NCBI RefSeq assembly: GCF_964204645.1
Contig: NC_134031.1
Location: 14,090,307 to 14,154,306, forward strand
Direction: 5' to 3'
DNA length: 64,000 bases
Source of the DNA: Tubulanus polymorphus
Lineage: Eukaryota; Nemertea; Palaeonemertea; Tubulaniformes; Tubulanidae
The notes beneath the pieces are model-generated. The model did not search any database. It was not told the DNA's origin and saw only the letters and a program-made list of their open reading frames with translations. Of the stretch, positions 3,199 to 58,538 are shown piece after piece; position 1 is the first letter of the stretch, and every line of letters begins with the position of its first letter. A program made the translations under genes and the position numbers.

Positions 3199-3338
3199 TT
3201 ATTATAGAATTTTTTATTAAAATTAAAATTTTAATACATAACACTATTCAATTGAGAATTTATGATATTTAATTGCGCGTCAAATATAATATAAATGTGC
3301 ATTTTATAATTTAAACCTTTCTTCTTTTACATGAATAA

Positions 3339-4413: not shown

Positions 4414-4433
4414 TTATTTAAGAGAAAAATTCA

Positions 4434-4751
4434 TTATTTATTTTTTATCATATTCACTAATACAAAAATAATTGCACTTATAACTGTAATTAAAAATAAA
4501 ATTATATGTTCAGCAGCAAAGTTAATAATATTTCCAGCAGATTTCAATATAAAACCAACAATTGATGCTATAACTCCGGGTAAAGCTGCAGCCCATTTTT
4601 TAGATAGTTCCCATAGATATTTTGCTAATTCTTTTAAACCATCTTTAACTTTATCTTGTATTGAATTATTATTTGGAGGTTTATCTGGTCCGGGAGTAGA
4701 TGTAGATTTTAATGAATTTGATATTGCTAAACCAATTGTTGTAAATAACAT
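4434..4751 (-). CDS. Small virion-type membrane protein (one or two hydrophobic segments)
   Basis: A 105-residue frame immediately upstream of the capsid gene in transcription order. A short Pro/Asn-rich stretch and an amphipathic helix (around KDGLKELAKYLWELSKKW) are followed by a Gly/Ala/Ile-rich segment and a clear C-terminal membrane helix (HIILFLITVISAIIFVLVNM). Small proteins of this build often neighbour the capsid gene in such elements, where they are presumed virion or membrane-active proteins. I saw no ATG in the ATAAATG context here, so the true 5' end may lie upstream. Confidence 0.45.
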   Translation of the reverse strand: MLFTTIGLAISNSLKSTSTPGPDKPPNNNSIQDKVKDGLKELAKYLWELSKKWAAALPGVIASIVGFILKSAGNIINFAAEHIILFLITVISAIIFVLVNMIKNK

Positions 4752-5063
4752 AGTTACAGCTGTTAGAATTGAAAGAATTGTTATACCTTCTAATTAAAAT
4801 AATAATTTTATTCTATCTTTTAATGATATTTCAGAATTTGGTTTTATCAACAAATCTTTAAAAATAACTTATAATTTTCTAATATGATTAAGATCATATG
4901 ATTTCAATAATATATCTCTTTCTCTTTCCTTTAAATTCTTTTAAAGTCATATTTTAAATCATCAATTTCTTTTTCTAAAGCTAACTTTCTGCTTTCATAA
5001 TCAGCTTCCTCGATTAATTGAAGATCTCTATTTAAGTCTAATTGTTTTAATTCTTCATTTGCA

Positions 5064-6145
5064 TCAGTTAGTTTTTTTTTCTAACATGGTTATATTAGAA
5101 AATCTCATCTTAATATTAGCAATTTCACCAGCTGATTCTTGCATACCTTTAATTTCTCTACGTGCTTGTTCAGGAAATATTTTTAATTCTTCTTCATTTG
5201 AATCAAGTAATCCTTTTTTTAATAAAGATTGCATTCGATTTGTTCCAGTTTCAGTACCAGGTGTATCTAAAATACTATTCATCTCTTCTTCAAATGAATG
5301 AACTGTAACATGCTGTCAAACTGTTTTACTACTTGTAATTGACTTGAACCATTATCAATTTGTTGAATATCTCTTCTCGATGTTTCTGGTGTTGAAGATC
5401 TTAATTTATCTAATCGATCTCCATACTCATCCATTTCTGGATCAACAGAAGTAGGATTTAGATTTGGATTTTTAAATGGTGAATATTTGTTAATATCAAT
5501 ACCAACATTTGGTTCTTCTTCATTTATTCTATCGAGTGCATTCCATATAAGTCTGAGAAATTCTGTACCACCTTTTGAACGTTCAATTGTAGATCTCGCT
5601 AACATTTCAGGATGGTACAGATCTTCTTGTCCCATTTTAGATAATTGAATTGATACAGTTTTTTTATTTAATTCAACATTATAATACCATGAATCATTTT
5701 TAAATTCAAAATTATTCATGAAATGTATGTCATCTTTTATAATTTGTTCTGAAATATCTTCTGGTTCAATGTTATCTGTTACATTTTTTGGTAATAATTC
5801 TTCTATAACTGTATTTTACACTATGTTTTATGTATAGTAATTCTCTTTTCAATTCAGGGTTTTCTGTTCTTTATAATCTATTAATTAAATCTTTTCTTTC
5901 TGGTCTAGTTTTAATTAATATCTCATCGCGGGTTCTTAAATAATCTACTAATTTTTCACTTGTTTCAGTATCATCTTTAAATTCATCATAATCATATAAT
6001 ATAGGCTAGAATCACCTTCACCTAAATTAGTATTATATGCTGCTCCACCATCATTATCAATATAAGTTTCATTAAAATCAGGTTGTGGTTCATCACTTAT
6101 ACCAGGGGCGTCACCAAAAGTATCCATTGGAATATATTCTTCCAT
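5064..6145 (-). pseudogene. Conserved unknown protein of the virus-derived element, broken into pieces
   Basis: Three pieces appear to belong to one gene opening at the ATG of 6143-6145, again in ATAAATG context. They are an acidic N-terminus (5948-6145), a central part (5279-5719) with hydrophobic and charged stretches, and an acidic helical C-terminal part (5064-5282). Readable sequence of similar character fills 5720-5948 in other frames. No domain is named. The position next to the capsid genes suggests a structural or scaffolding protein. Several frame changes, for example near 5950 and 5280, indicate decay. Confidence 0.4.
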
Positions 6146-6159
6146 TTATATAATAAAAA

Positions 6160-7037
6160 AATTAAGATTTAATATAATTAATATTCCTCCTATTACAATT
6201 CCTATACAAGTTATAGCTAATTTAGCATTTTCCTGTGATTTATTATCATTATTACTTTTAATTATATGATGTTGAATAATATCAGTTTTAATATTTTCTG
6301 ATATTTCCTGATATTTTTTCTGATATATGATTATTTATTCCAGCTTTAGTAAAACCTTCACTATTTTCTAAAATAAAATTAATCCATCCATTATTATTTT
6401 GTTGTTGTATATTATTATAGTATTTTGGTAATTTATTCCAATTGAGTGTTCTTATATCTGTATTTGTCATTATTTTTCCAAATTCTTCAGTATATAATAT
6501 TCCTAATCCACCCATTGTACCAATTTTTGCTCTTAAATCATTAATTGAATTAATATTAAAGTCATTACATATTTTATAAAACTTTGATAAATTAATATCA
6601 TTATTTAGTTCATTAAAATATTTCGAACCTAGTAAAGGGCACTCTAATTCATTTAATATTAATTTTATTTGAAAATATGTATGAAATCAAAAAAGTGATA
6701 ATATCAATGGTAAACTTGGTTTATTTAAATGATCATTCTAACTTATATCACACCCTGTTGTTGCGCAATAAACTGCAAAGTTTTGCCAATACTTCATATT
6801 AGATTTTAATAACCATTGTTTTGCCTCATTTAAATTTTTAAAATTAATTACGTTAATATTGAATATATTTTCCATCTTAACATTATAATTATTAGTTTCA
6901 GTAACATAAATATCTAAATTAATTAATGAATTTAAAACTTCATTTCTATATGAAATATCTTTATCAAAATCTATTGCTGGAATATTATATTCAATTGATT
7001 TATCATATTGAAAAGCTTTTGGATAACTAATTGCCAT
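6160..7037 (-). pseudogene. Conserved unknown of Polinton-like elements with GFTKAG motif, frameshifted
   Basis: The frame opens at 7037 (ATAAATG context). An N-terminal piece to 6738 includes WQNFAVYCATTGCD. Further readable protein continues in other frames, then the 6288-6515 piece ends with the landmark NSEGFTKAGIN. A hydrophobic segment lies near the 3' end at about 6170-6230. I associate this protein type (CATTGC-like motif, then GFTxAG) with invertebrate Polinton-like elements, but its function is unknown to me. Stops and frame changes near 6738 and 6520 show it is broken. Confidence 0.45.
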
Positions 7038-7056
7038 TTATATAATAAAAAAATCA
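7038..7056 (-). promoter_or_regulatory. Shared start-context/late-promoter-like motif of the virus element
   Basis: On the minus strand a T-run, a short AT tract and then ATAAATG precede this gene. The same heptamer ATAAATG covers the start codon at 9522, 9142, 8510, 8164, 7918, 7037, 6145, 4413 and 3198. In most cases a T-rich run lies 8-20 bases upstream. Poxvirus and related late promoters use TAAAT at the start codon, so a virus-type promoter is a reasonable inference. High AT content could produce some matches by chance, but not nine of nine so easily. Confidence 0.5.
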
Positions 7057-7059
7057 ATA

Positions 7060-7470
7060 AATAATTAATTCTTTTAAAAATTTATCTTGTTCTTCAATTG
7101 TTATATTACCATTTACACTTATAATCTAATGTATTTTTTAATTTATTAATTTCTTTTATATTAGATTTTATTTTTTCTTTATTTCTTTTTATATTCTATT
7201 TTGAACTTATTCCGGTTTAAACACTTGAACTTAATCCTAACACACCAATTGATATAGCTAAAGGAGTTAATGGACTGAATATTGCTAAAAATGTTATTAC
7301 AGAACTTATTGTAACTGAACCACTAATAATGAAATAATGTATAATTATGCTTTTTAAATATTTTTTCTTTTTAACTTTTAAATCATTTTCAAATTCTAAT
7401 ATTTGTTTTTCCAAATATAATTTTAATTTAGTTTTATTTATATCATATCATGAGGAATAATATCAACATT
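7060..7470 (-). pseudogene. Small membrane protein with coiled-coil flank, degraded
   Basis: The clearest frame (7217-7414) has a charged Lys/Glu-rich N-terminal stretch. It is followed by a long hydrophobic segment that could cross the membrane twice (around SSVITFLAIFSPLTPLAISIGVLGL). Lysine- and isoleucine-rich sequence continues to about 7060 in shifted frames, and the apparent start lies upstream near 7470. The single-frame version is therefore only part of it. Confidence 0.35.
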
Positions 7471-7498
7471 ATCAACTTTATTATCATTAGAAAAAAAA

Positions 7499-7918
7499 TT
7501 ACTTATTTGTGAATTTATAAGCAACAAATAATACAATATTTGTTCCACCTAAAATCCAAATTATTTCATATTGTTGTTGTTCTTTACTTGGTCTATAATA
7601 ATCTGATAATTTAGGTTTGTATGGATGTAATTTTTCACGATTTGTTACTGCGTTACATAAACTCATAGCTTCATCAACTGATTGAAAATATCTATGTGTA
7701 ATTTTCTGATCATATGATTCTTTGTTAATATAATCCATATAATTTTGTCTTTTTTCTCTATATTCTTCTGCAGCTTTATTGTATTTCTCTAATGCTAAGT
7801 TATGTCTTCTCTGTTCTGCTAATGAACTATTTTTATCAATATGCTTAAATAAATACCCACCACCTGTAAATGCTAAAGCGTTAACAATTGCCGATCCTAT
7901 AATAGTTGCAGATACCAT
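7499..7918 (-). CDS. Small protein with N- and C-terminal membrane segments
   Basis: A 139-residue intact frame starts at 7918 in ATAAATG context. It has a hydrophobic N-terminus (about residues 2-22), a long charged helical middle rich in Lys, Arg, Glu and Tyr, and a hydrophobic C-terminal helix (EIIWILGGTNIVLFVAYKF). The middle probably forms a helical hairpin or coiled coil. The next gene in the array (7943-8164) ends only 24 bases before this start. A virion membrane or morphogenesis role is a guess. Confidence 0.45.
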   Translation of the reverse strand: MVSATIIGSAIVNALAFTGGGYLFKHIDKNSSLAEQRRHNLALEKYNKAAEEYREKRQNYMDYINKESYDQKITHRYFQSVDEAMSLCNAVTNREKLHPYKPKLSDYYRPSKEQQQYEIIWILGGTNIVLFVAYKFTNK

Positions 7919-16768: not shown

Positions 16769-18859
16769 TCAGTATTTTCGCCAGAAATGATGTTGATACA
16801 TGTTATGAATCACTCGGAGGATATTTCCTGTAATTCCCGTTAAAATTAATTTATGCCACAGTGCTTTTCTCCATATTGTATCGAATGCTTTTTGGTAATC
16901 AATAAATATACAGTAAAGCTTCCGCTTATTACTAGTCAGAATATCTATAAGGGAATGCAATGTGAAAATATGGTCCATGACACTACGATTTTTTCGAAAT
17001 CCAGCTTGATTTTCATTCAGTAATTGGTTATCCATCAAAAACTCCTCTAAACGTTTATTAATCAGGCTCGTAAACAATTTGCTCATACAGCTTAATAGAG
17101 TAATTCCTCTGTAGTTATCCGGATTGGAAGGGTCTCCCTTATTCTTAAAGATTGGAGTGATAATACCTACAGCCCACTCTTCCGGAATGCAGCCAGTTTT
17201 CAAAATATTGTTAAACAACAAAACGAGGGTAGGCATGATTTCATTTTCTGCAGTTTTGAGGAATTCGTTTAAAATTTCGTCGTTTCCAGTGGCTTTATTA
17301 TTTTTGAGGCATTTTATACATTTAGATATTTCTCCCTCAGTGATTAGCCTATTAAGTGCATCATCATTGTGGTCATGAAGGAAGTCATTCACATTGAAAA
17401 AATTACGATTATCATTTTCTGCACTACGGTTTTGGTTAATGACGGAAAAGTGGTCAAATAAATCATCTAGCGACGCTTTACATTCATTTGGTTTTTCCTT
17501 TCGGAAATATTTCCAAAAAGCTTTTGGATCGTCTTTTGCTAACTTTCCTATTTGGTCATTGTGCAATTTAACTTTCTTTTGTTTTGGTATCTTTATCGAT
17601 GTTTTATACCTCTTATACGCCGAATTCAGATTAGTTCTATTTTGGACGGATCGATATCTTTTATAATTTCTTTTCGCTTTCCTATAAATTCTACGGTCTC
17701 GTTTCACTTTATAGTCATGTAACAAAGTTTTTGGTTTGTCAAAGTTAACCCGGCTTCGGCCCATTGTGGCCCCTGCCGCCTTATTTAAAATGTCGCATAT
17801 ACGCTTATTCGCACAGGCGCTGTCTATTATATCATTTTGAAGTTCGATATTTATTTTATTCAATTCGGTTTGGTTGATTGCCTCTCTAAAAACATCGCTT
17901 CGACCACTGTTCCATTTAATTTTACCTGGTATGTTAGGCATGTTTTGTACATTTGTATATGGACTTCTCGTGTGTGAAATAGAGAAGGAACACGTAACAG
18001 CACAGTGTACGTCTGAAATCATTTGGTCATAGTCGTTTACATTGAAGTTCACGCATTTTGACAACAAATAGGGAGACATAATAAAGTAATCAATAACATG
18101 GTTATTTTCCCCTTTGATGCACGTGTACTCACCGATTCCTTTATCCCTACCTAATCTGCCATTTGCAATGAACATGTTGTGATTTTTACAAAAGTCTAAC
18201 AAACGATAACCCCAATTATTGATAGAGGAGTCTTTGTTTTTCCTATTGAGTAGACCTTGTATTTTTAGTGCATCAAGGTTATGACGATCTTCCACAAAAA
18301 CTTCGTCTAGGCCTAGGAATTCCATGAGTATTTCGTCATGGGGTAAATAGTCTAATAACTGCTTTGTGTAGGCATTGAAATCGCCACATAGACAAAAATA
18401 AGCATCGGTAGAACTCATTCGGTTTATAACGTCAGTGTCGAGTTCATCGAATAAGTTAATATTTCCATATCTACTAGTTTCTGGGGGAATATATACTCCT
18501 CCAATTAACAAATGTTTTTTCCACCCTAGGAATCTCTTATCAATTTCAATCCATTGAATGATATTGGTTGATTTATGAATAGTTTTAATATATCTGTTTA
18601 GACTTTGCTTAAAAGCAACCAGGATTCCCCCAGATTTCCTTATAGCTAGATTTGATCTGTTATTCATGACTACTTCGTAACCGACACTTTTAAAATACTC
18701 TTTTACCCACAATTCATCGGAATCATCAAGTTTGGTTTCAGAAAAAACTAAAATATCAGCTGACTTGCATAAACTATCAAACTCTAGAGTATATGATCTA
18801 GATTTCAAACCACAAATATTCAGACACAGGATACTAATTTCTCCTGGCTCGGCGCAATC
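16769..18859 (-). CDS. LINE ORF2: endonuclease and partial reverse transcriptase
   Basis: The exonuclease-endonuclease-phosphatase domain begins right after the ORF1 stop (ISILCLNICGLKSR). It shows the catalytic landmarks SETKLDD, GGVYIPPE, CGDFNAYTK and SDVHCAV. A linker with basic residues leads to RT blocks NNKATGNDEI, PDNYRGITLLS, AGFRKNRS and FIDYQKAFDT (catalytic motif A). The YADD block and C-terminal knuckle are absent because the reading frame ends at 16769 in unrelated sequence. No ATG occurs before the middle of the endonuclease, so the protein must start by readthrough of the UAG or at a non-AUG codon. Confidence 0.85.
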   Translation of the reverse strand, partial: DCAEPGEISILCLNICGLKSRSYTLEFDSLCKSADILVFSETKLDDSDELWVKEYFKSVGYEVVMNNRSNLAIRKSGGILVAFKQSLNRYIKTIHKSTNIIQWIEIDKRFLGWKKHLLIGGVYIPPETSRYGNINLFDELDTDVINRMSSTDAYFCLCGDFNAYTKQLLDYLPHDEILMEFLGLDEVFVEDRHNLDALKIQGLLNRKNKDSSINNWGYRLLDFCKNHNMFIANGRLGRDKGIGEYTCIKGENNHVIDYFIMSPYLLSKCVNFNVNDYDQMISDVHCAVTCSFSISHTRSPYTNVQNMPNIPGKIKWNSGRSDVFREAINQTELNKINIELQNDIIDSACANKRICDILNKAAGATMGRSRVNFDKPKTLLHDYKVKRDRRIYRKAKRNYKRYRSVQNRTNLNSAYKRYKTSIKIPKQKKVKLHNDQIGKLAKDDPKAFWKYFRKEKPNECKASLDDLFDHFSVINQNRSAENDNRNFFNVNDFLHDHNDDALNRLITEGEISKCIKCLKNNKATGNDEILNEFLKTAENEIMPTLVLLFNNILKTGCIPEEWAVGIITPIFKNKGDPSNPDNYRGITLLSCMSKLFTSLINKRLEEFLMDNQLLNENQAGFRKNRSVMDHIFTLHSLIDILTSNKRKLYCIFIDYQKAFDTIWRKALWHKLILTGITGNILRVIHNMYQHHFWRKY

Positions 18860-23020: not shown

Positions 23021-25400
23021 TGTGGTTAGATAGATAGTTTATTCTTAATCAAAGTGTATACTACACTTGTATGACAGATAATCAAAATTACAAATCTTAA
23101 CAAAATAATTTAGTCAAAATTACATCTTGAAAAAACAGAAATATTTAGTTGATGGGGTAGCTATATTTACTCGGTTTGGTCGCCTCGAAGCATTTTCTGT
23201 CTACTGAACATTGAAATCAAATATCTTCCAACAGATCTAAGTTTTCCGATTGAATTAGTAGTTAGAAGTTGAATAAAATTTGCCATGCTAGGATGTGTTC
23301 TAAAATAACGAGGTAAGAGATTACTTCGAAGCGAGTTGTATGAGGGGCAGGACATGAGAACGTGATATTCGTCCTCAATTTCGTCAGTGGAGCAAGTTGT
23401 ACAAGTGCGGTTTTCTCTCGGCGTTAAGGGCCTGGTCCATCTACCTGTTTCAATCCTAAGATCGTGACTGCCGCATCTAAATTTAGAGATAAGGTTAACT
23501 ATTTTTGTGTCATTAATGTCAAGGTATCGTTCGTATACGAAACTTCCGTTGAAATATCTATAAAGATTGCACTTAGGGCTACGTTCTAAAGCCGCCCTCC
23601 ACGACTGAATGTAATGGTCTTTCAACCTTTGTTCGACGAGTTTTAAAAAGAATCGATCATTTTGAACTTCTTGCGCTAGCCAATAATTGCCGACACCTAG
23701 GCCGTTAAGGAAGTCACGCATTTTTGAGGCCCAGTTACAGGTGCGCGGGCTGTTCTGAATATCACCATAAAGCAGATTGTAAGTTTGGCGTAAAAGTGTG
23801 TTCTCCTCTGACCGCAGAATTTTTAACCAAAACTTTGCTACAGAGATTTGTATATCTATAGACAGAGGGAAACAGCCTAGTTCACCGTAGACCATTACAT
23901 TCGGTGTCGTGGCGCGCACATTGAGTATGTATTTACAGAATTTGACATGAACGGATTCTATATTTCTAACATTTTCCAATGCCCAGATTGGGCTACCATA
24001 CATTAATACTGATTTCACTAATGAATCAAAGATATCAAGCTTGGTTTTAGGTGAAATGAGTCTCGCGTTTAGCAAATACTTCTTGAGTCCAAAGCAAGCT
24101 CTTGTACCTTGATCGGCCTGCGACTTGATTGCAGCAGACATTTTGCCGTTATTTGACATAGTAATGCCAAGGTACTGAAAGGTTGACACCTCTTCCAGTA
24201 GGACATTGTTATAAAAACATAAAAGGGGGTTACGGTTATTTCTACGGTACCCAATTTTCATTGTCTTTGTCTTATCAGAATTCACAGATAGTTTCATCTT
24301 TTTACAATAATCATGCAGAATATCAAGCGCACCCTGCAATTCTCCGGGCGATTGGGCTAGAATGACGGTATCATCGGCGTAAAGCAAGACATATAGTTTG
24401 AATAAATTAAAGTCAATGCCTGAATGGCCATTGTTTATAAAAAATTCTTCATGTCATTAATATAGATATTGAAAAGTACAGGCGAGATACAGTCGCCTTG
24501 CCTTACGCCGACGGTGCAGTCAAAAAAGCTAGATATGAACCCATTGTTTTTGACACATGATTCACTGTTAGCATACATAGATTTAATTATGTCATAAACT
24601 TTGCCAGTGATACCAGCTTCCAGGATCTTTTTCCAGAGAATGTCGTGGTTCAAATAATCGAAGGCCTTAGAAAAATCTACGAATGCCATACACGCATTTT
24701 TCATTTTCTTCGTTATACAGTGATCGATGATTGAAGACAATACAAAGGATTGATTTATAGTACCATTATTTGGCCTAAAACCGGCCTGTGCATTATTTAA
24801 TACTTGGTGTGCCTCTAACCATTGTATAATGCGTGTATTCAGAATAATTGAAAATATTTTTCCGAAGCAGCTCAAGACGGTGATACCTCTATAATTGTTT
24901 GGGTCGGAAGTCATCCCTTTCTTATGAATGGGTGCAATGCAGCCACTGCTCCAATTTTGTGGGTAAATACCTGATTGAAGGATGACATTGAAAAAAATGG
25001 TCAGCACAGGTGTTAGGGTTTCAGAGGCAGTTATAAGCATTTCTGGTAGGATATTATCAAGACCCGGTGATTTGCCTTTTTTAGATTTCTTATCGCTCTT
25101 ATAACTTCATCTCTAGTTATGGGGATGTCTAGATCGTGAGGCATATTAATAGCTTCCGTATCATTTTCATTAAGCAAAAGATCAGGATCAATGTCATCGT
25201 TTGATTCAGATTGAATTATTCCGCGAAAAAAAGTTTCGATACAATTCTCATTCTTAGGATACGAATCGGTTGATTGAATTCGGTCATTTAAACTACTGGC
25301 TAATTTACAGTGGTCACTATTGAAACGATTAATTGAAGTGCCCTTGAAATCAAGATAGATTCCTGTTGCGTAAATTAACTAATTTTCAAGCGACCAACTT
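23021..25400 (-). pseudogene. Second LINE, 3' half (reverse transcriptase and C-terminal domain), frameshifted
   Basis: The 24435-25040 frame carries RT blocks YRGITVLS, AGFRPNNGT, FVDFSKAFD and VRQGDCISPVLFN. The 23167-24387 frame continues with LLYADDTVIL, the QYLGI block and a C-terminal CTTCSTDEIEDEYHVLMSCP knuckle. A one-base change in a T run near 24435 separates them. Another slip, in the A run near 25080, separates the KSPGLDN block from upstream RT sequence that can be traced to about 25380. The endonuclease and ORF1 are absent, the usual 5' truncation. Sequence differs clearly from the LINE at 16.8-20.1 kb, so this is another family of the same broad clade. Confidence 0.85.
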
Positions 25401-27739: not shown

Positions 27740-27763
27740 TTAAAGGATTTGTGACACCTAAAT
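27740..27763 (+). repeat. Left TTAA and terminal inverted repeat of Kolobok A
   Basis: TTAA followed by AGGATTTGTGACACCTAAAT. This end is the mirror of the right end at 32937-32960. The TGACAC core is shared with element B. Confidence 0.85.
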
Positions 27764-28050
27764 TATTTCTGCGGTTTTAGTTAGTATGAATAAAATTATT
27801 ACCGACAATATTTACGAAAATTAGAAGCAATGAACGTGCAATGAACGTTTATATGGTTTTGAGAGCGATTTTGATGGAAAATCTCGCACAACAGTTGAAG
27901 CGCGCATCTTCGGGCATTTCCGTCAAACATCGGTGATGATGACGTATAACCGAGAAGACGAACGCGGAAGTGGCTCATTGTACAACGAAGGATTGACTAG
28001 CGCGGACGATATATTATTCGATTATTCTGTTTTTTCTAAGTTTTTCGATC

Positions 28051-31000
28051 ATGCCTCGTCGTTGTATTTACTACAATTGTAGTTAAAGTAATCGCTCTTT
28101 GTTCTGGTGGCCACGGGATACGGTTATTGCGCGTAAATGGACCGCATTTGTGAGCAGAAAGAGAGCACAATGGAAGCCCTCATCCACGAGTGTATTGTGT
28201 GGGAGGCACTTCACCAACGATTCATTTACGAACTATTCAATGTTTACTTCAGGATTCGCGACTAAGTAAGTCTTTTAACATTCAATATTTAAAATAAAAG
28301 CAGTATTGCTATCTCATTCTTTTCATCAGGTCAGGTTAAAAAGTGTTTCAGTACACGGAAACTGGGTCAGGTCCTTTCTTTGTTCATTGCTTCGTTTAGA
28401 CATGTTTTCTGACTAACTGGTCTAGTAACTGCCTTCCCGACTCATTAATTGATGTATCATGGCTGGTTTTACAAGCTGCTCATATTGATTGCCTGAGGAC
28501 TAAATGGACCTCCTGACTCGATGTTAGGTCTACACTTAAAACCTTGAAGCCTAATCTAGTATGCAAGTATAACTATCATATTTTGAATTCCATTTAGATT
28601 ACATTTGAAGCCAGATGCCATCCCTACCATTCACATAAATGACGACGATGATAACAGTCAATCAGATACCACTAAAAGACCAACGTACGCAAAACGAAAA
28701 AGAAAAGAGTTGGTGGAAACTTTAGTAGCTGATACAGTATCTAACGAAGAGTTACAGCCTTCTACATCAACCGCTGAAACGTCATACAGTCCGACAGCTG
28801 ATACATCAACCAGTCCAACATCATCACCAGATAGGCCTCCCAAGTTTGTCGAAAAATCGTCACAGAAAGATATTGAAGCAGAAACCAAAGGTAAATTTCA
28901 CTATATCATAAAAAATTCATGCTACAATAATTTTCTGGCATTCCATTTATATTTTCAACCTGATTTTTAGAAATTATGTTGTGAAAAAGTCTGTAGGTTA
29001 TCTGAGAATAATTGGCGTATTGTTAATCGATGTTTTATTTGTGTCATTAAAGGTAATCAAACGCTTGCATGGAGACCGAAATGTAATCGACGACACTATC
29101 CGAGTCAGGGTAAATTAACAAGGAAGAAAACAACTGGCACACAAATGACCCCTAAAAAGTTTAAGCCTTCGTATGATAGCACCGATACCGACGTATCCAG
29201 CGATGACGAATACTTCGACGATGATCCCGATTATGATCCAGGTGAAGATCCTAATGGATCATCTTCAACTGAATTTGACGATGAATGTAGCTCTTCAGTA
29301 TTCGATGAAATGAGGTAGGATTTTAATTTTCCTACAGTGTTTTTTTACAACACTTATATCATAACTATGATAAGTATAATTTTTTTCAGGGATGACGCAG
29401 AAGTGCCATTACAAAAGAGGTCAAAATTCATTGTTGACCAATCTGCATTGCTGGAACTGTTTGTGTTTTGCATTTTGTGTCGTGGGAAAAACACTGTCCT
29501 TCGCAGAGTAATTTCTACCCAGCTCACCGTGAAGACGAAGTGTCAGCAGTGTCACCATGAAACCAAATGGCAAAGTGAACCATGTGTAAAGCGTATCCCA
29601 ATAACCGGTCTGTTATTAAGTTCACTGATAGTGCTGACTGGAAATCTCACCTCAAAAGTTATACGACTGCTCAGGTAAGAAAAAGAAAATCAAGCATTCA
29701 GTAAAAGGTTTACATCTTGATCGCTTTATAATATGGATAATTATCATTATTGGATTATCTGCTTATAGGTTGGCAGGTATCCAGTGCATGAGTACAAGAA
29801 CTGCGTTTCGGCACCAAGCACAGTTTGTACATAAGGCAGTGTACTCTGTTTGGAAATCAAGTCGTCAGTCTTTACTCGACAGCCTCAAAGGATCAGCACT
29901 TCTCATTGGGGGGATGCTAGGTGTGACAGCCCAGGACACTCTGCAAAATATTGTACATATTCGATAATGGACCTGAAAAGTAATAAGATAATTTCATCAG
30001 AACTGATACAGGTGTGGTATATCATTTGAAATTTTAGTCCTTTATAATAATATTAGTTCTTACTTATAAGAATATAATCTTATTATTCATTTAGTCAAAT
30101 GAGGTAACGTCATCAAACGCTATGGAAATAGAAGGTCTGAAACGTGCTGCAGAACGATTGAAGACATACGAAATCACAGCTTTCATTAGCGATATGCACC
30201 CTTCAGTGCATAAGTGGGCTCGAGACACCTGGAAAGTATCTCATTACTTTGATACCTGGCATTGTGTGAAGGGTAAGTCAATTATCAAATCAGAATCCTG
30301 TTATAACATCCCGCTCTACTTTGAATCAATATCAATTTCACTTGGTGTTAACTCATTCTGGTATGAGAGCAACAGACATTTATTTTCTGTGTAATATTAT
30401 GTTTTGCAGCAGTGATTAAGAAACTCGAGAAACTCAGTAAAAAGAAAGGTCTCGAAGATATCCAAGCTTGGATACAAAGTATCCGAGTTCACCTGTATTG
30501 GTGCGCTATGTCGTCGAAACCTGGGGACCATGAGGATATAAAACGAAAGTGGGAAACCTGTTTGGAACATATTTCAAACAATCATGAAAACTGTATGCAT
30601 GGAGATTATGAAAAGAAAAAAAAATGGATATTACCAGGTATCTATGATAACCAAAAGTCTTCATAAGCTATTGACTTGATACATGGGTGATTAGTTGCAT
30701 TTTACATGTACATATTATATTTCGTCATTTTTCTAGATACATATGCCGCAAGTGAGCTCAACATTCGTCTAATAAATTAGTGTCTTTACAAATTGGATCT
30801 GTGATATTTCTTTAATTTCCATAAACCTAAAGTGCGTGGGACATGAACCTGAGACTTATAAATCCTTCGTGGCTTTGTTTTGGTTCCAACTCGCTAGTGT
30901 TGCCATCTTTTGGTTTTTATTTTAACTTACTACATCTGTATGATTTCAAACCAGGCGATATGGAATAAATAAAATATTCAGATAATATTGTCACATAAAA

Positions 31001-31514
31001 TATGAAAAATGATTTCATTTTTAGGATGTGCACAGCAATCTTGCATTACAACGAAAATAGCGGCAGACTTCAAGCTAAAACTAAAGATGGGAATGAGCGT
31101 TTCACTGTATTTTATCCAAAACACAAAGATGGTCACACGCTTCGTAGAATATTGACCAAAGCAACATATGGTAGGTCACAATTGGATGCATATTAGAACC
31201 CTTTGATCATCGATAGTTTATAAACATATCATTGAAGCCTGTCTATAATTGAAAGCGGATCCTCATTTGCTTCATCAAATATCTTTTTAGGTTATGTCGA
31301 TGAATGCGTTGTTGCAGCAATAAAGATTGCAAACAAGGAAGTCGAAGTGAGTGATTACTGTACTCCTCCACCTCATTTGAGTTCTCAAAAAGTGAAAGTA
31401 ACCAAGGAAGAAGCCATAAACCAGCATTTGTCTCGCTTCAAGAAAGTTACAGAAATCGTGCAATCGAAGCCTCAATCCTCAGGACCAACACAGCAACAGA
31501 AGAGAAAAAGATAA
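28051..31514 (+). pseudogene. Kolobok A transposase gene (THAP + DDE), damaged
   Basis: Ten exons can be traced with consensus splice sites: 28051-28265 (THAP finger, CIYYNC ... VLCGRHF), 28598-28890 (starts with the AVPTF-like box LKPDAIPTI), 29053-29314 (acidic), 29390-29674 (CILC/CQQC zinc ribbon), 29769-30011 (first catalytic Asp block), 30095-30272 (ISDMH, second Asp; DTWHCVK), 30410-30637 (HLYWCAMSS), 31026-31170, and 31291-31514 (basic tail and stop). Lesions: an in-frame TAA at 28084-28086 inside the THAP domain, an extra base in the G6 run 29908-29913 just before the first catalytic Asp, and no counterpart of B's exon 53334-53505, which holds the presumed catalytic Glu. It shares domain order and intron positions with the gene in element B. 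Confidence 0.8.
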
Positions 31515-31624
31515 AACAATAAACTGTAATCAAGATAACGATTAATGAAAAACTAATTCCTGAAATAATTTGTCCGTTTTATTTAATAAAGATACTTATA
31601 TTATTATTTACACACATAATTCAC

Positions 31625-32725
31625 TTAGTCGTCCAGTTTTGGCAGCCTGAATCCTATATAAATGGCGAATTCTTCATCACCGTCTTTCGGAAAGTGTGCC
31701 CGGATGCACGAAACAACACAAGATGGCAAAATAACCCTTATCTTAGGTCCACAGAATCCCCAGCACCAACGAACAAACTGGCGATACGCAATATGTCTGT
31801 ATTTATCATTGGTCTGGCCTTCAAATGCTCTTCTGCCGTATTGGTTTCTATAACCACTCCAGGCTGTTTGAAGAACCCAGACATGTAGGCACACCCCCTT
31901 AAATCCATCGGTGTCAGTGATGCAGTTGTATTCCCCGGAATCGTATCCTTCGAGTTCTCGAATTTTCCCGGCAACAACATCTATCTCACTGCAACACACA
32001 CATTCCGGTTCTGTTGTTAGAATTTGACAATGGGTGCATGTACACCTGTGAAAATAAATTAAAACATTCCATCAAGACATGAAAGGTGGATCTAATTATT
32101 TCTCGTCTGGGTCTAACTGCAGTTTGGGTCACCTTTCCACTGTGTGACGCTAGTTGTTAACGTAAGGTTAGGTACATAACCATTAGGGACACCTAAACTG
32201 CAGTCACTCCCTGGTCTGGAATGAGATATCGGGTAGGCTTTCTAGCAGTCTCTGATTGCCGTTTTAGATGGCTTAGTTAGTTTATACTGAATTCCTTAGA
32301 TACCGGCTGTACAAAAAAAAACTACAAAAGACTATAGAAAGCCTTCTGTTTTACTATTGGTTGACGGATGAATTTAATAACCGAATCCACCATTATCCTT
32401 AGATTGTGTCGCCCCATACTTTGTTAACAACAATAGAAATCCCTTACCATTCATTGAACCGATGAACATCTAATCTAGAGATTCTATCCGGTCTATTGTC
32501 CGGTCTAGCGCCGTCTTCGTCATCGTCTGATGCATCAGGCTCGTACAAATACGGCGGCTCTGCAGCATTAAAAACGTCCATATCGGGCCCCATTTCGCCC
32601 ACCTCAATTTCAGATGATAGTGCACTTTCATCTGAGAATTCTCTTTCGCTTATATTTTCGCTCACTTCGCTAGATGAGGATGAATTGTCGGAGGAATAAT
32701 CACTGCATTCTCTATTGTCGGCCAT
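31625..32725 (-). CDS. P2X7 ballast-domain-like protein, Kolobok A accessory gene
   Basis: Two exons: 32448-32725 from an ATG, and 31625-32045. They are joined across an intron with GTAAGG donor and TTTCACAG acceptor, the split codon restoring a Trp. Exon 1 encodes an acidic, Ser-rich leader ending PYLYEPDASDDDEDG and then RFNEW. Exon 2 opens with CTCTHC and ECVCCSEID and continues to RHIAYRQFVRWCWG, LPSCVVSCIRAHFP and YIGF. These are the landmarks of the zinc-binding cytoplasmic (ballast) domain of vertebrate P2X7 and its many invertebrate relatives. No membrane segment or ion-channel part is present. The gene converges on the transposase gene inside the same TIRs, so it travels with the element. 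Its role is unknown; a zinc- or nucleotide-binding regulator is inference. Confidence 0.8.
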
Positions 32726-32936
32726 TTTGTTTCTGTTTGTTGTTCTCGGTTATACGTCATTCGATGACGTCATTGCCAACGCACGTGGCAATGTAGTCAA
32801 ATGTAAACAAATCATCGGAATTTCTATTAAAAGTCGTATTTAGACCAGTTAGCTAAACCGTAGAAATGTTTTATTGATATCAGTCCAATCTACGATGATT
32901 CATCTACCAAATTAATCATTAAGAATGCAAAACCTG

Positions 32937-32960
32937 ACTTATGTGTCACAAATCCTTTAA
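32937..32960 (-). repeat. Right terminal inverted repeat and TTAA of Kolobok A
   Basis: Read on the minus strand, TTAA is followed by AGGATTTGTGACACATAAGT, matching the left end with two mismatches in 20. Confidence 0.85.
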
Positions 32961-46785: not shown

Positions 46786-48774
46786 CGCAATGATAATGTT
46801 TTAGACTTGGACTCTAATGACAGTGACTCAAACGCTAAAAGTGGTTCAGAAAGCGATTTTAAACCCGGAAAGAAACCGAAAGTGAACCCGGAAGTGATTT
46901 AGATGCGGAAGTAAGTGACAATAATGGTGAAAATAGTCCTGTAAGTGACGATAATACTCCTGATAGTGATGATAATCAGTCTGCTGATAGTGACAGTACT
47001 GATAATGACAATCCCCAACCCCCACCAGCACCTGTCGTCCGTGGTCGGGGACGCGGACGTGGTCGAGCTACTGCTGCTGTTAGAGGCAGGCAGGGTCGTG
47101 GAACTGGGAGAGGTCATGCCCCAGTGGTCGTAGTGGACGTGGTGGACGTGGTGGACGTGGAGGACGTGCACAAGGTGCCAACATTGATCAGGATCCTGAT
47201 TGGGCTGAAGATAGAAACCACCCCCCTCCTAACTGGTTGCCGCAGTACAACTGTCCGAATCCAGGTGAGCCAAAGTTCGTTACTACGGACTACACGCCAA
47301 TTGACTTTTTCACAAAAGCTTTTCCGGACACTATTATAGACATGCTAGTGACTGAAACAAATCGTTATTTTCAACAATATCAAAACAGTGGAAATACTAC
47401 TGATAGTGTTCTAGAAACCTGGTATAATGTCACTAGTGACGAAATGAAAGCATTCCTGGCATTGTTGTTACTGACGGGATATGGAGATCGGGGATCTTTT
47501 CGTGCACATTGGTCTACTGATAAACCAGGATTCCGAGCCGTAATGAGCCGCAATCGGTTTTTGATGCTATTACGATTCTTGCACCCTGTGAATAACAAAA
47601 CACAAATTCAAAGAGGGCAGCCTGGTTATGACAGGACATTCAAGGTCAAGTCTTTGATTGAACAGCTAGTTCGCGCATGGAATGACGCCTTCCATATGGA
47701 AATGTTTCTGTCCGTGGATGAAGGCATGATAGCCTTTAAGGGTCGAACTTCTATGTTGCAATACATCAAGAGTAAGCCTGTCAAGTGGGGCATGAAAGCA
47801 TGGATACTGGCTGGGTCGAAAACTGGTTACGCCCAACTGGTTGGACGCTGTACAAAGGAGCGGACGGTGGTCAAGTTGACCTTGGGTATCGAGTTGTTAT
47901 GGACGCATCTCAGAATGTTCGGGCTGGCCAGGTCATAACATGTGACAATTTCTTCACTAGTGTGAAACCATTTGTGGACCTAAAAGATCGAAACATTGGT
48001 GCCTGTGGCACAGTTAGGGCGAATCGTGCAGGAAATCCACTAAAACTGAAGCAGCAATTCACGGCCCGCACCAACAAACGACAATTGCAGGACATGTCGC
48101 CTTTGATGTTATGGCATAACGCGTCAGACATGTTAGCAATTAGTTGGTATGACAAACGCCCAGTTTGTGTATTGTCTACTGTTAGCAATGCAGGTGTTAC
48201 TGTGAAGCATATTCGTTCACGTGAAGGAAAGGACGGTTACAGACAAATTGAAAAACCCAATGCAATTGAGGACTACAACACATATATGGGTGGAGTTGAT
48301 CTGAATGATCAATACAACTCCTATTTCAGCATACTACATCGTTCAGTGAAATGGTGGAAAAAGGTTTTTTGCCACCTGCTTATCACAGCAGTAACAAATG
48401 CATACATAATGCACAAGGTGTCCAATGCTGCTGATGCATTGACCAGTAGACAGTTTCGTTTGGAGTTATGCCATGAACTTATTGCTGACTACCAACGTGC
48501 ACCTCATCAACCCGGTCGTCAGATTTGGCATAACGATGCACCACAGCATTAGAATGGAGGAGCACATTTTATGGAAAAACTAATGGCAGGCCTGATTGTG
48601 TTGTGTGCACACTTAGAGAGAACAAAAAGTATGTTCGCTGGCATCAGACACAAAGGCAGTGTAAAACATGTGTACCTCCTGTACCTTTGTGTGACGTACC
48701 ATGCTTTGAGATTTATCATCGTTTTGTGGATTATAAGCTGTATTGGAGGCAGAATCACATGAATAATCAGTAAG
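46786..48774 (+). pseudogene. piggyBac transposase (PGBD4-like) with acidic and RGG N-terminus, frameshifted
   Basis: An Asp/Ser-rich leader (about 46800-47020) runs into an Arg/Gly-rich tract (GRGRGRGR, then RGGRGGRGG, to about 47170). The catalytic region follows: FLSVDEGMIAFKGR (first Asp, 47717), VITCDNFFTS (second Asp, 47944) and YMGGVDLNDQY (third Asp, 48298). The C-terminal cysteine-rich finger (DCVVC, CKTC, LCDVPCF) is readable at 48594-48700 in another frame. Frame changes near 46900, 47100-47130, 47840 and 48540 break the gene. A likely right end with AAAGGG/TTAA is at 49069-49078. The left end was not found, perhaps because the LINE fragment replaced it. Confidence 0.8.
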
Positions 48775-50221: not shown

Positions 50222-50244
50222 TTAAAGGGTAACTGACACTTTTT
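50222..50244 (+). repeat. Left TTAA and TIR of Kolobok B
   Basis: TTAA then AGGGTAACTGACACTTTTT. It pairs perfectly with 58516-58538. Confidence 0.9.
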
Positions 50245-51285
50245 TTTTTATTTCAAAATTCGATAAGTTCTATCGAACTAAGGAAGACTTTGAAATAGTT
50301 CTGTTCAAAAATGTGTAGTTTCCGCGAAAATCGTGATTTTGTAAGACAATTTTTGACCTCATTTCGTTGTATACATCGCGTTAGAAATCATCGGCAATTT
50401 CCGTCGATCTCCGGCGCTGTGACGTCAATAAAGTGAGCACTGAAAATTCTCTTCTATGAGATAACGTTGCGTTTTTACTACTCGGCGTGTTTTCACTGCT
50501 TTTTCTCAAATGCCAAATCGTTGTGTTTGCTTTGGGTGCGATTATTCGGATAGGGGTATATATCCTGTTCTTCGAGAAAAATGGGCTTCTTTTGTAGGTT
50601 TAAAGCGATTGAATTGGAGCGGCCCAACGTCGAATAGCGTCGTGTGTTACCGGCATTTTACCAACGATGATTTCGTTAATAAAATGCAGTATGATGCACA
50701 ATTTGCAAAGAGGTAAGTTTCATTCAGTCATCTTAACATTTATTCGAGACATGGTTTGAGAATAATTATTGTATGGGCTTGAAAATCACTGTTAAAAGGG
50801 TCGCATTTTCAAGTCCAATTCAAATCAATAAAATTTATTTTTTCCACGCGCGGTATCCAATTCATAATTTTTTATGTCAAAATGCCGTTTAACTTTTGTT
50901 TGCTAAGCGTGATTGTAAAACCATGCCTTCTAGGTCAGCTTACATCGTGTGACAATAGAAACATCTTTTCATTGAACTACTACTATAGGCCACAGTGCAT
51001 TGGCCATCGTACAATAGGCTTTTATTGTCATTGTGAGTGCCTTACTTCACTCACTAACTACAATAACAAAATGAATATTTCACGAGCCTTGTGAATTAAC
51101 GGTTGCCTTTTGCTTGAAATAGATTGTTGCTGAAACAAGGAGCCGTGCCATCGATCCACACTGTGATAGAAACCCCTGAATCTACATCTCAACCAGAGGA
51201 TTTCTTCTCGCCACCACGAAAGCCTGGACGAAAAGTGTTTGAGAAGAGGGAGAGACGGCGAGTCATTGCTGAGACTGAGAGCCAG

Positions 51286-51331
51286 GTTTTGCATAATCTT
51301 CAACCAAATTTGGTTGAAGATTATGCAAAAC
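51286..51331. repeat. 46-bp perfect palindrome inside transposase exon 2
   Basis: Arms of 20 bases (51286-51305 and 51312-51331) are exact reverse complements around AAATTT, so all 46 bases are palindromic. The reading frame stays open through it. Such a structure would make a strong hairpin in RNA or cruciform in DNA. Confidence 0.95.
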
Positions 51332-53772
51332 CTGGTGAAGATGACGGCGGGGAAGTGTATGCGGAACCCGGTATCAAATCAGAGTTCGAGGCGACAAGAG
51401 AATTTGCTGTGCAGGCTGAACCGGATTGTAAATCTCGAGGTAGGATTTTCATGATGGTATGGTGTATCATTGTCATTCAGTTTTGAATATATCACTGTAA
51501 TCATTGAATTTCATGTTATTTAATGATAATTTTTTCTAGGGATGCAAACGCTGAAAGAAACTGCACAGGTGAAGACCAAAATTGTGTACCGCATCAAACC
51601 TAAGATTATCTACAGAACGCCATTTAAGGCTCAGCGTTCAGTTGGAATCCAGGAAAATGCATTGAGTGAGTATTCTTTATTCAGTCTATATCGTATTATG
51701 GTACGGCTTGTATTATGGGGTTTTTTATGATATCATCTATTCTCCCTATCTATTTAATCCTACTACTGTGATTGGTCTGTTTTAGCCCGAAACATTGGTA
51801 TTCAATGTAAGCGACCTGCTGAAGAACTTACAAATACCTCAAAAGCCATTTGTATTGGAGAAGAATCAGATTTAGGGAGTGACAGTGAAGATGATGACTA
51901 TCATCCAGATTCGGCAGAAGAGTCAGAGATGGACAGTGGCTCTGAGGATGATTCTGAAGGCAGAGTTATGTTTGAAGAAATGAGGTTAGTAAAGTATAAT
52001 ATTTTAATCATGAATGATATTTTCCTTTCTTTTGTATAAAACTTCATTTATCATTGCAGTGATGAATCGGATAAGTCGTATAAAGACCAAACCAAGATTA
52101 TTGTGTTCCAGTCAGCAATTCTGCAGCTGTTACAATACTGCCGGCGCTGTGGAAGAGAGAACCAAGTTTGGAAGAGGCACAGAGGAACAATGTTGACTGT
52201 CAGAACAAATTGTTTGAATTGTGGTGAAACTACTGAATGGTCCAGCCAACCAACAGTTGCTCGAGGAATTCCTATATTGGATGTTTTATTAAGTGCCATG
52301 GTTCTTTTAACAGGAAGTTTGCCCACAAAAGTTTTTCGACTGTTCAAGTAAGTTGCAGTAAAAACAATACTTTCAGTCTAATCAAACATAATTTTTTAAA
52401 GTTATAAATGTAATGGTCAATCCAATTTCAGTTTCATGAATATAAAGGCTCAGAGTACGAGGACATATTTCCGGTACCAGAAAAACTATCTTCACGATGC
52501 TGTTTCATCTGTGTGGGAAGCAAGTAGATCGGCACTTGTCAACAAATTACCAGGGCCACGATTGCTTGCTGGTGATGGACGTTGCGATTCTATGGGTCAT
52601 TCTGCTAAATTTGGAAGTTACACTCTGATGGATTTAATAACTAACAAAGTGATCGCGTTTCAACTTGTTCAGGTATGTCAGAACCATAAAATCTTGCTTT
52701 TTCCTGAATTTAAAACAGTGAAAGGTTTACGTCTATCTTTGTTATTGATTTTTTTAGTCGAATGAGGTAAAGAATTCAAATGCAATGGAATTGGAAGGCT
52801 TAAAGCGTTGCCGAATACAGATAGGAAACCTGAAAGTGATGGCATTTATTTCGGATATGCACATTCAAATTACTAAATGGACAAGGGAAGTTTGGAATGT
52901 AGCTCACTATTATGACTGCTGGCACGTTGTTAAAAGTAAGTTCAAAAATTCTTTGTGTAGAATTTACATATCACTCACGGAATCAAAAATGAGACGAAAT
53001 ACTAATTTTTCATTTCAAGGTATAACTAAGAAACTAGAAATAATGTCGAGGAAAAAGGAATGTGAAGAAATCAAGGATTGGATAAAGTCAATAAAATGTC
53101 ATTTGTACTGGTGCGCTGCATGCATCATCATCACCCGGGGATAAAGAAGGCATCAGTAAAAAATGGTCATCAGCAGTCAAACACATCCAAGACAATCATG
53201 AAGACTGCAGCCATGAACCCATAACATCAGAAAAGAAATGGCTTTATCCAGGTAAGATATTATCTATTGCAACTACTGAATCAGAAATTATATCTAATTT
53301 CATGTGATGAAACATTTGATGTACTATTTACAGGATCTTTGGTTGGTGATTCTATGCAAAAATATCTGACGAATACACGGGTTATAAATAAAGTGAAGAT
53401 GATGTCACCATACGGCCAGACCAGTAAACTGGAGTGTCTTCACAGTTTATTCAATCATTTTGCCCCGAAGATGATTCAGTTTTCTTACAATGGAATGACA
53501 AGCAGGTAAGCAAAGTATATAACAATTGAGTGATTTCTATTTTTTCATACATATGTCCCTGCTAAGACTTATATCAATGTCTTATGTCTTCTCTTAGGTT
53601 ACAAATAGCTGCCCTACATTTCAATGAGAATAGTGACAGAATACAAGGCACAAAGATTGATGGGACAAAAAAATATAGCATTGTCTATCCAAAATACAAG
53701 GACACCCACACATTACGAAAACTACTCACTGATGCCACTTATGGTGAATATTAAAACCCTGGGACGCCCACC

Positions 53773-54148
53773 GTCCCATATATGGAACACCCCCTTCAAC
53801 CCCCCTTTAAAAAAAATTGTGTGAAGATTTGATCGAATTATAATATTTTGCTACCACTTCTGCCCGGTGTCCCACCCGCGGCACACGAACAGAAGCTGGT
53901 TGCGACATCTTCCGTCTGTGCAGTGCATTCAACATGGCCGCGCCCATGAAATTGGGATGACGCAAATTCGAATCAAAATTATCGTGAAAATTTCGCATGG
54001 AATCAGGTAATTAGACCACTTTTGTAATGTTATTTTACTAAAACAAATAATAAAGAATAATTAGAGTCATTGTTATCGCGTGTAGCTGATAAAGTGAAGT
54101 GTGTAAAGCCGATGTTTTAGTGGTGTCCCACCCGTGGAACACCGGGCA
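53773..54148. repeat. Sub-terminal palindromic repeats of the piggyBac
   Basis: Four related palindromes occur: 53773-53791, 53861-53887, 54122-54148 and, near the right end, 56281-56304. They share TGCCCGGTGT(C/T)CCA and its complement TGGAACACCGGGCA. They are likely transposase-binding sites. Confidence 0.65.
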
Positions 54149-54318
54149 GAAATGTTTGGTGTCAGCATGATTGATAAGATTTTTTGTATGGAACTTTTTG
54201 GGTTTGTATGGACTGCAGCACTATGATTTAGCCTTTTTATGCCCTCATGGCTAATGTTTTGATTCTTTTCTGTATTTTTAGTGATTTGGTGAATACTTGA
54301 GTCTCATCATGAAAAACC

Positions 54319-56111
54319 ATGTCTAGACAAAATAAAAAAGCATTCAGTTTGGTTCAAGTTCTGGATGTAATTGATGACGACGATAGTGATTTTGGCAATG
54401 ACCCTAAATCTGATGATGATGATGGCTGGGGCAGCGATGATGATTATGACGGAAATGCAGGGGAATCTGATATTGATAGCGACGATGGTGATGAGGATGC
54501 CGATGGCGAAAGCGATGACGATGTTCCGCTTGCTCAATTAGCTGGTGTGAGTCAGGTAGTGAGCCGTACAAAAACTGATTGTAAGTGGGTGAAAAAAAAA
54601 TTCACACCTCCAGTTATAAACTTTACTGGCCCAGCCGTTGAACCTATATGCCGTGGGGTTGAACTTGAGACGCCGTTGTGGTATTTTAGCCAGTTCATAA
54701 CAAGGGACATGTTAGATTTGATTGTGGAAAATACAAATTTATATAGTGCACAAGTATTAGGCCCAGATAAATCGGTAAATACAAACTACAAAGAGATTGA
54801 ACTATTCCTAGGAATTTATTTGAGAATGGGTCTAATACAGTTGAGATCTGTTCGCATGTATTGGGAAGTGAATCTTCGCATCCCGTTTATCGCAGATGTG
54901 ATGCCGCGAAATAGGTTCGAGACCTTGCAGCGGTATTTACACTTTGTCAATAATGAAGCTGTAACGGATGATATGAAGAAAAATAAAGTGTGGAAGTTGC
55001 AGCCATTTATTGATAAATTTCGACAACAATGTCTTCTCGTGACTCCAGAACAGTACCAGTGCGTTGACGAGCAAATGATCAGCTATAAAGGGAAGTTTAG
55101 TGGAATTCGTCAATATATCCGAGGAAAACCTCATCCGTGGGGGTTCAAAATGTGGGCCAGGTGCGGTAGCGATGGCTTTTTACATGATTTCGAGATGTAT
55201 CAAGGAAAAAATAGTGCCGAACAACGGGTTGATTCTCTTGGAACTCATATTGTCTTCAAACTATGCCAATCCCTTGCCGATAACTGTGGTTATATAGTTT
55301 TTGCTGATAACCTGTTCACCTCATTACAACTTTTGTTGAAGTTGGTACAACGCGGAATTTATTATGTTGGTACAGTTAGGGCAAATCGTGTTAGTGGTTG
55401 TCCACTCAAAACCGATAATCAGCTGAAAACCAGAGGTGAATATGATTATTATGTAGAGAACAAAGAAAATGTAGTATGCTGTCGCTGGAAGGACACAAAG
55501 GCGGTAACTTTGATGTCAACGTATGTAGGACCTGAACCGTTGGACCTGAACCGTTAGACAAATGTAAACGATGGGATAAGACTGCCAAAGCCTATAAGGA
55601 GATCAGTCGGCCATTCATGGTAAAAGAGTATAATAACCACATGGGTGGTGAAGATATGCTAGACGCATATTTGGCTAAATGTAAATTTCGTATGAGAACG
55701 AAACGATGGTATACCATATTGTTTTGGAATTATGTTAGTATAGCTTGTATCAATGCATGGCTACTTTATAAGCGCGATGCAAATCTCCTTGGTACGCCCA
55801 GTAAAATAAAACTCCGCGTATTTCAAACTCAGGTAGCAAAAGCATTAGTTACATGTGGCATGGCAAAGAGAAGGGGACGGCCATCGGATGCAGCAGGTTC
55901 ACCATCACAATATGTTCCTCCAAAAATGATACGCGTTTTGCCAGACGTTGACAGCCGATATGATCAGGTTGCTCATTGGCCTGTGAAGGCAGATAAAAGG
56001 GCCCGTTGCGTAGTTTGTAGTTCTAAAACGGACACCAGATGTGAGAAATGTGAAGTTCTCCTTTGTTTTACTGAAAACCGTAACTGTTATAGAGCATATC
56101 ATATAAAATAA
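54319..56111 (+). pseudogene. piggyBac transposase, broken by a 14-bp duplication
   Basis: The ATG at 54319 opens a frame with a very acidic first 70 residues. The DDD core follows: YQCVDEQMISYKG (Asp250), YIVFADNLFTS (Asp330) and, in the downstream frame, NHMGGEDMLDAY (Asp coded at 55653). The C-terminal Cys-rich finger (CVVCSS, CEKCEVLLCF) ends at 56109-56111. The two frames are separated by an exact 14-bp tandem duplication at 55528-55555. This alone accounts for the frame change, since 14 bases shift the frame and both sides are otherwise open. The copy looks recently active. Confidence 0.9.
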
Positions 56112-58309: not shown

Positions 58310-58515
58310 TATTGAGTCGCTGCCTTTAATGACGTAGTTCTATAAATAGCCCGCAGTACACGTGTTTTTCCGGAACGATGTAAACAAAACGAGGCGCGCG
58401 AAAATCAAAATCATCAAATATCATTATAAATTGAAATTTTTTCCGATCTTTCAAATTGTCAATCTCAATAGTATACTATAATGAATCATTTTATTCCAAA
58501 AGTAGAAAATTCTTG

Positions 58516-58538
58516 AAAAAGTGTCAGTTACCCTTTAA
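58516..58538 (-). repeat. Right TIR and TTAA of Kolobok B
   Basis: On the minus strand: TTAA then AGGGTAACTGACACTTTTT. It is identical to the left end over 19 bases. Confidence 0.9.

Follow-up and report, generated by a model that had tools for sequence, protein, structure and literature searches.

The window analysed here is a stretch of 64,000 nucleotides from the nemertean Tubulanus polymorphus (contig NC_134031.1, positions 14,090,307 to 14,154,306 of the forward strand). At positions 27740-32960 it contains a TTAA-flanked transposon with 14-bp inverted ends, here called element A. The plus strand of element A carries a transposase gene of about ten exons, which was drawn from homology between copies and encodes a THAP domain and a DDE catalytic core. 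On the minus strand lies KolX, a two-exon gene whose product resembles the ballast domain of P2X7. The two genes are convergent, with stop codons about 110 bp apart. An earlier sequence-only reading of this stretch had described mirrored ends flanked by TTAA, a THAP-DDE gene and a convergent two-exon gene for a P2X7-tail protein. That anatomy stands, except that the transposase gene of the window copy is broken in three places. The features of element A are as follows.

27740-27743: left TTAA, target-site duplication (single TTAA in two related sites without the insertion)
27744-27757, plus strand: left terminal inverted repeat (TIR), AGGATTTGTGACAC (exact mirror at the right end; genome-wide count)
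28051-28266, plus strand: THAP exon of the transposase, interrupted in frame by a stop at about 28084 (other loci match Pfam THAP in this exon)
about 28605-28892 and 29052-29315, plus strand: two low-complexity N-terminal transposase exons (homology between copies)
29388-29675, plus strand: transposase exon preceding the catalytic core, with a Cys-rich stretch (homology between copies)
29770-30011, plus strand: transposase exon that holds the motif of the first catalytic D, with a frame break near 29915
30095-30274, plus strand: transposase exon with the second-D region and the DxxH (DTWH) signature (motif and homology)
30409-30639, plus strand: transposase exon between DxxH and the catalytic E (homology between copies)
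30738-30758, plus strand: what is left of the catalytic-E exon (L018-L021 have about 190 bp more here)
31023-31169, plus strand: transposase C-terminal exon 1 (homology between copies)
31290-31514, plus strand: transposase C-terminal exon 2, to the stop codon (homology between copies)
31625-32045, minus strand: KolX exon 2, which encodes the ballast domain with its predicted zinc-ligand cysteines and ends at the stop codon (P2RX7_C match)
32448-32725, minus strand: KolX exon 1, acidic tail with the motif PYLYEP (gene model, motif count)
32943-32956, minus strand: right TIR (exact mirror of the left TIR; genome-wide count)
32957-32960: right TTAA (single TTAA in two related sites without the insertion)

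Pfam THAP (PF05485) matched the corresponding exon in three other loci, L019, L030 and L023 (E-values of 3.4e-9, 5.5e-10 and 1.7e-8, respectively). The exons further downstream carry the Kolobok-type DDE motifs GGDARCDSPGH, ISDMHPS, DTWH (the C/DxxH signature between the second D and the E) and SSVEAFHS, the catalytic residues being assigned by motif alone rather than by alignment to a named Kolobok. In element A, a stop interrupts the THAP exon, the first-D exon has lost its frame, and the missing 190 bp or so correspond to most of the catalytic-E exon of other copies. Because of these three breaks, element A, which is left with an open KolX gene and both ends, could at best be mobilised by other copies.

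KolX of element A encodes 232 amino acids (aa) in two exons (32725-32448 and 32045-31625) separated by a 402-bp intron; the gene model was built from the sequence, with splice sites placed by eye. The best protein match in the database has the same 232-aa length and is 98% identical. Relatives from Ptychodera, Exaiptasia, Montipora and Ylistrum were also among the matches. The open reading frame (ORF) of exon 2 matched Pfam P2RX7_C (PF20478) with an E-value of 7.7e-11 and no other Pfam family, and no Pfam family was found in the exon-1 ORF. The two-exon model ends at 232 aa, with no P2X channel domain in it. A KolX profile matched P2X7 in the Protein Data Bank (E 3.1e-8), and the best matches of the predicted KolX fold were P2X7 structures, though weak in score. 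In an alignment of 30 sequences (two window ORFs and 28 proteins chosen from the 65 found), the predicted zinc-ligand cysteines of the P2X7 ballast, or ZCD, domain are conserved: C10, C12, C15, C26 and C27 (window ORF numbering) in at least 90%, whereas C50 and C118 are invariant. In the acidic tail, the motif P-[YFH]-x-[FY]-E-P (P-Y-x-F-E-P) was present in 15/15 tails examined, these being the proteins among the 65 in which a WCxC junction could be recognised and the tail reached 40 residues or more. Judged by its sequence, KolX is a free-standing P2X7 ballast domain with an acidic tail. No KolX relative was confirmed among viral contigs (26 pattern matches) or GTDB genome contigs (68) at the sensitivity of that search.

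Within the window, a pair of mirrored 14-mers with at most 2 mismatches is not rare, arising in 16 of 100 shuffles. We therefore relied on the genome-wide count of TTAA plus AGGATTTGTGACAC, the 18-mer found at 27740-27757 and, as an exact mirror, at 32943-32960. With up to one mismatch permitted, it was found at 11 sites in the 267.8-Mb genome, all of them exact, and its backwards control at none. The sites form five facing pairs (on C1, C3 twice, C7 and C10; 4.6 to 10 kb) and a lone left end on C6. Thus, the ends of this family, family A, are beyond chance. All five copies with both ends enclose a KolX match. KolX is free of stops in four of the five, and in the copy at C3:16.3 Mb it is split and interrupted by one stop. 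The joined flanks of element A gave 37 match rows, and the two best were aligned (87% and 86% identity). In each of these empty sites the junction holds a single TTAA, and the three bases after it have no counterpart in the window. Element A was thus inserted into an older repeat at a TTAA. A repeat search of element A found no direct repeat longer than 23 nucleotides, hence no long terminal direct repeats.

The linkage of the two genes extends beyond family A. Genome searches with KolX exon 2 (83 matches) and with the second-D exon of the transposase (51 matches) were merged into 68 and 50 loci, respectively, both being lower bounds. Of the 50 second-D-exon loci, 34 lie within 3 kb of a convergent KolX; widening the limit to 5, 10 and 20 kb raises this number to 38, 39 and 41, respectively. 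KolX in any other arrangement was found within 20 kb at none of the 50. Conversely, 41 of the 68 KolX loci have a second-D exon in reach. Stretches of about 10 kb were then fetched around the 20 best-ranked KolX loci, the window copy among them, and scanned for inverted ends that bracket KolX, lie next to TTAA and agree at 14 or more of 16 bases. Such ends were detected in 14 of the 20 loci (26,023 TTAA pairs tested). In the control, the 255 other tetramers combined gave 5 locus hits from 2,170,059 pairs. TTAA on both flanks of all 14 loci was a condition of the scan and has to be read together with this control. In all 14 the termini read AG...CT, starting with AGG, which fits the Kolobok pattern 5'-RR / YY-3'. 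The proposal that this transposon lineage spreads the P2X7-tail family is thus supported for this genome by the convergent pairs, the bracketed loci and the five family-A pairs.

Two of the fetched stretches, L026 and L027 (the latter on the reversed strand), contain further TTAA-flanked inverted pairs of 15-16 matching bases that enclose KolX (L026, 1776-9615 and 1786-9605; L027, 1858-9373). Ends of the L026 type occur at 6 sites (backwards control, 1), and four of these form two pairs, both with KolX.

We compared the selection acting on the two genes in a list of 17 chosen pairs of copies, of which one was well measured. In this pair, the family-A copies L019 and L020, KolX differs by 19 synonymous and 8 non-synonymous changes, giving a ratio of non-synonymous to synonymous rates (dN/dS) of 0.10; the transposase differs by 31 and 11, giving 0.09. 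For L019 and L022, the KolX ratio is 0.09, with dS near-saturated. Between L019 and L021, KolX gives 0.13 and the transposase 0.49, in keeping with decay of the L021 transposase. Where measurable, KolX is under purifying selection as strong as that on the transposase.

KolX and transposase distances were also correlated across 13 loci chosen from 25 fetched stretches, one of them (L040) with only 54 KolX columns (Mantel r 0.83; a value as high was reached in 0 of 20000 permutations). This indicates that KolX has long travelled with the transposase. L022 differs from element A (L019) by 22% in KolX and by 50% in the transposase, the corresponding values for L023 being 38% and 36%. A KolX swap between families is suggested by these sequences, but it is not established. 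Raw site counts differ strongly, but a long L022 branch would inflate such counts. Shared derived sites are too few (transposase, 9 versus 3, p 0.15; KolX, 6 versus 2, p 0.29). Moreover, the first-D exon of L022 carries a stop, so that transposase decay is an alternative reading.

A second TTAA-flanked Kolobok with KolX lies in the same window. This element B (8317 bp) belongs to family B and has the following parts.

50222-58538: element B, with AGGGTAACTGACAC at both ends (end search, alignment to L031)
53756-56437, plus strand: piggyBac-type element nested between Kolobok transposase exons of element B (domain match, alignment)
57360-58309, minus strand: KolX gene of element B; exon 1 starts with the ATG at 58309, and exon 2 runs from about 57786 to a stop codon at 57360

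The nested piggyBac element is about 2.7 kb long and sits at a TTAA-bearing site; an additional insertion of about 0.7 kb was seen near 51303-51992. Family-B ends occur at 198 sites in the genome. Among the first 100 of these, 32 pairs within 16 kb were formed. Nine enclose a KolX match; the others do not, 17 of them measuring 1.3-1.6 kb and 6 having other lengths. The lack of KolX in the short copies was judged from the exon-2 genome search rather than by reading them. It suggests that the ends suffice in cis and that KolX is not needed there. The expectation of the sequence-only reading that most other copies would carry the second gene was therefore correct for family A and for copies with a second-D exon, and, by that search, wrong for the short family-B copies. 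Two spans with family-B ends and no KolX match, C4:5843071-5856417 (13,347 bp) and C8:2875592-2888953 (13,362 bp), are much longer; their like lengths suggest a real large non-autonomous element. Of the C4 span, 9.95 kb were read and contained a single ORF of at least 110 aa.

The same reading had implied that P2X7-like genes should not lie outside inverted ends. Among the 25 of 68 KolX loci that were read in stretches, one candidate for such a gene was found, L041 (C7:3966500-3972000). Its single-copy KolX (C7:3969149-3969604) is open both in its ballast exon and in the acidic exon upstream of it, the latter with the motifs GPYMYGP and QPYMFEP. The nearest relatives of this gene are 72% identical in DNA. 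Within the 5.5 kb fetched, no transposase exon and no TTAA-flanked inverted pair were detected. L041 is a candidate for a host-adopted KolX or a lone relic.

Several observations weigh against a regular and functional association of KolX with the transposase. Within 20 kb, a convergent KolX is absent from nine of the 50 second-D-exon loci. Three of the nine match strongly (E below 1e-17): C6:16637996, which is the lone left-end copy of family A; C6:16659343; and C2:14712688, which has a KolX 21 kb off. Three of the 41 linked loci are paired only at 10-20 kb. From the other side, no second-D exon lies in reach of 27 KolX loci out of 68, although other transposase exons are present in at least four of the 27 (L020 and L033-L035). 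Inverted ends were not found in 6 of the 20 best-ranked loci (L021, L024, L025, L028, L029 and L035). Since the THAP exon of L035 is at the edge of its stretch and the transposase of L025 is 10 kb away, the left ends of these two are probably outside the fetched stretches. Five later stretches of 5-6 kb (L040-L044) contained no inverted pair either; L041 has KolX alone, and the other four hold KolX pieces with transposase exons of divergent families. Three mutually similar copies of the Cys-rich transposase exon, at C8:2503077, C8:3061949 and C8:3425450, are 51% identical to element A and have internal stops; two of them have a second-D-exon match, with no KolX within 20 kb of those matches. 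The three may represent a KolX-less Kolobok family or duplicated relics. Finally, near-identical copies with few changes gave dN/dS values of up to 0.79 for KolX and 1.84 for the transposase, and a low dN/dS shows that KolX is kept and says nothing on why.

With these points taken into account, element A is a Kolobok copy, probably of the Kol0 kind, a placement made by the presence of KolX and by the published description (PMC9587614). KolX in turn is most likely a trans-acting accessory of transposition. Linkage to the transposase across divergent families together with purifying selection argues that KolX matters to the element and is not passenger cargo. An element of this kind inserts at TTAA and encodes, convergently, a THAP-DDE transposase and KolX. 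The transposase would move the element, presumably by cut-and-paste. Movement by a DDE transposase follows from membership in the Kolobok superfamily, and the cut-and-paste mode is general background. KolX would act in trans, either as an adaptor in the transposase-DNA complex or as a regulator of the transposase. We tentatively extend this to a model in which KolX would be an obligatory, exchangeable co-factor of THAP-DDE transposons. Its tail would dock via P-[YFH]-x-[FY]-E-P on the transposase or on a host factor, its ballast domain would do conserved work, and the P2X7 tail would be re-used transposition machinery.

The accessory role is our first choice, and a role of KolX outside transposition chemistry comes second, with a rather low probability. 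Here, KolX would shield the element from the host, by blocking silencing or damage signalling or by steering to a permissive cell state. Such a shield would likewise be selected and linked to the transposase, a host-factor binder could be expected to have an acidic tail with a short motif as constant as that of KolX, and the suggested exchange of KolX between families would be in line with it. However, positive evidence for a shield is missing, and the parts of the literature examined describe no such role for the ballast domain. A captured host gene carried as Kolobok cargo is very unlikely. The single-copy, open KolX of L041, standing apart from any detected transposase exon or inverted pair, would fit such an origin, but it would fit the reverse direction as well, in which the gene was left over or the host adopted it. 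Linkage at 41 of 50 loci in several divergent families and the correlated divergence argue against cargo, as does the pairing of Kol0 and KolX already published for diverse animals (PMC9587614). For element B, the KolX gene might be assigned to piggyBac, another user of TTAA, since it lies downstream of and convergent with the piggyBac transposase (54313-56111). We give this almost no credence: Kolobok transposase exons flank the piggyBac element on both sides, and without it element B aligns end to end with L031, a Kolobok copy that lacks piggyBac, in three blocks of 98.4-99.8% identity and with one further insertion of about 0.7 kb. As the piggyBac element is a nested insertion, it is excluded as the carrier of KolX in the window.

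Elsewhere in the window, ORFs at 47084-48552 resemble, by eye, another piggyBac-type transposase. Long ORFs at 16769-18859 and 23167-25106 resemble, also by eye, the endonuclease/reverse transcriptase of non-LTR retrotransposons. A cluster of ORFs of 130-220 aa each, mostly on the minus strand, was seen at 2408-7918.

The link between KolX and P2X7 is already in print. According to the portion of Kojima and Bao 2022 available to us (PMC9587614), Kol0 Kolobok elements encode a transposase and KolX, KolX resembles the P2X7 ballast, and P2X7 is proposed to have arisen when a P2X4-like gene was fused to KolX. Those authors also describe the ballast proteins in the list of Rump et al. 2020 as previously unrecognised parts of Kolobok. 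Element A shares with Kol0 the TTAA duplication, the 5'-RR/YY-3' ends, the DDE transposase with DxxH, and KolX with its P2X7 ballast. The Kol0 hosts named in that portion are vertebrates, annelids, cnidarians and sponges, whereas the host here is a nemertean. The KolobokP, KolobokD, KolobokE and KolobokH lineages likewise have an accessory gene, which in their case encodes a nuclease or helicase. In KolobokP this gene is also downstream on the opposite strand, but KolobokP has long terminal direct repeats, which element A lacks; copy-out-like excision is discussed for that lineage in the same source.

The Xenopus Kolobok (XKol) and T2-MITE (PMC6004289) have in common with element A the TTAA, ends of the AG or AGGRR type, THAP (the usual N-terminal domain there), DDE and a zinc-finger motif. 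A word search of the text of that paper accessible to us gave no mention of a second or accessory gene.

With the vertebrate P2X7 ballast, the ZCD proteins and NANOR (Rump et al. 2020, PMC7016195, as far as its text was available), KolX shares the cysteine clusters and the blocks CIT, RHxAYR, LPSC and IRxxFP. Unlike vertebrate P2X7, KolX has no channel part; it is free-standing, has an acidic tail and lies inside a transposon. Among the GDP contacts given for rat P2X7 in that text, three align with a residue of the window ORF that is conserved in at least 90% of the 30 sequences: R546 with R92, H547 with H93 and R578 with R124. At R574 the window ORF has a valine; at K583 it has a lysine, one that is absent in most relatives. 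One or a few (<10) ZCD proteins per species are reported there, in contrast to the 68 loci in this one genome, and the word stem "transpos" is absent from that text. Relative to what we could consult of PMC9587614, the present analysis adds the nemertean families, the element A family among them, together with the linkage counts, the dN/dS values and the tail motif. These copies and counts independently back the 2022 proposal that the end domain of an inflammatory receptor began as a transposon protein. They also make the function of KolX and the ballast domain more tractable, as selection maintains the gene next to a transposase, its product carries a short conserved motif in the tail, and many natural variants exist in one genome.

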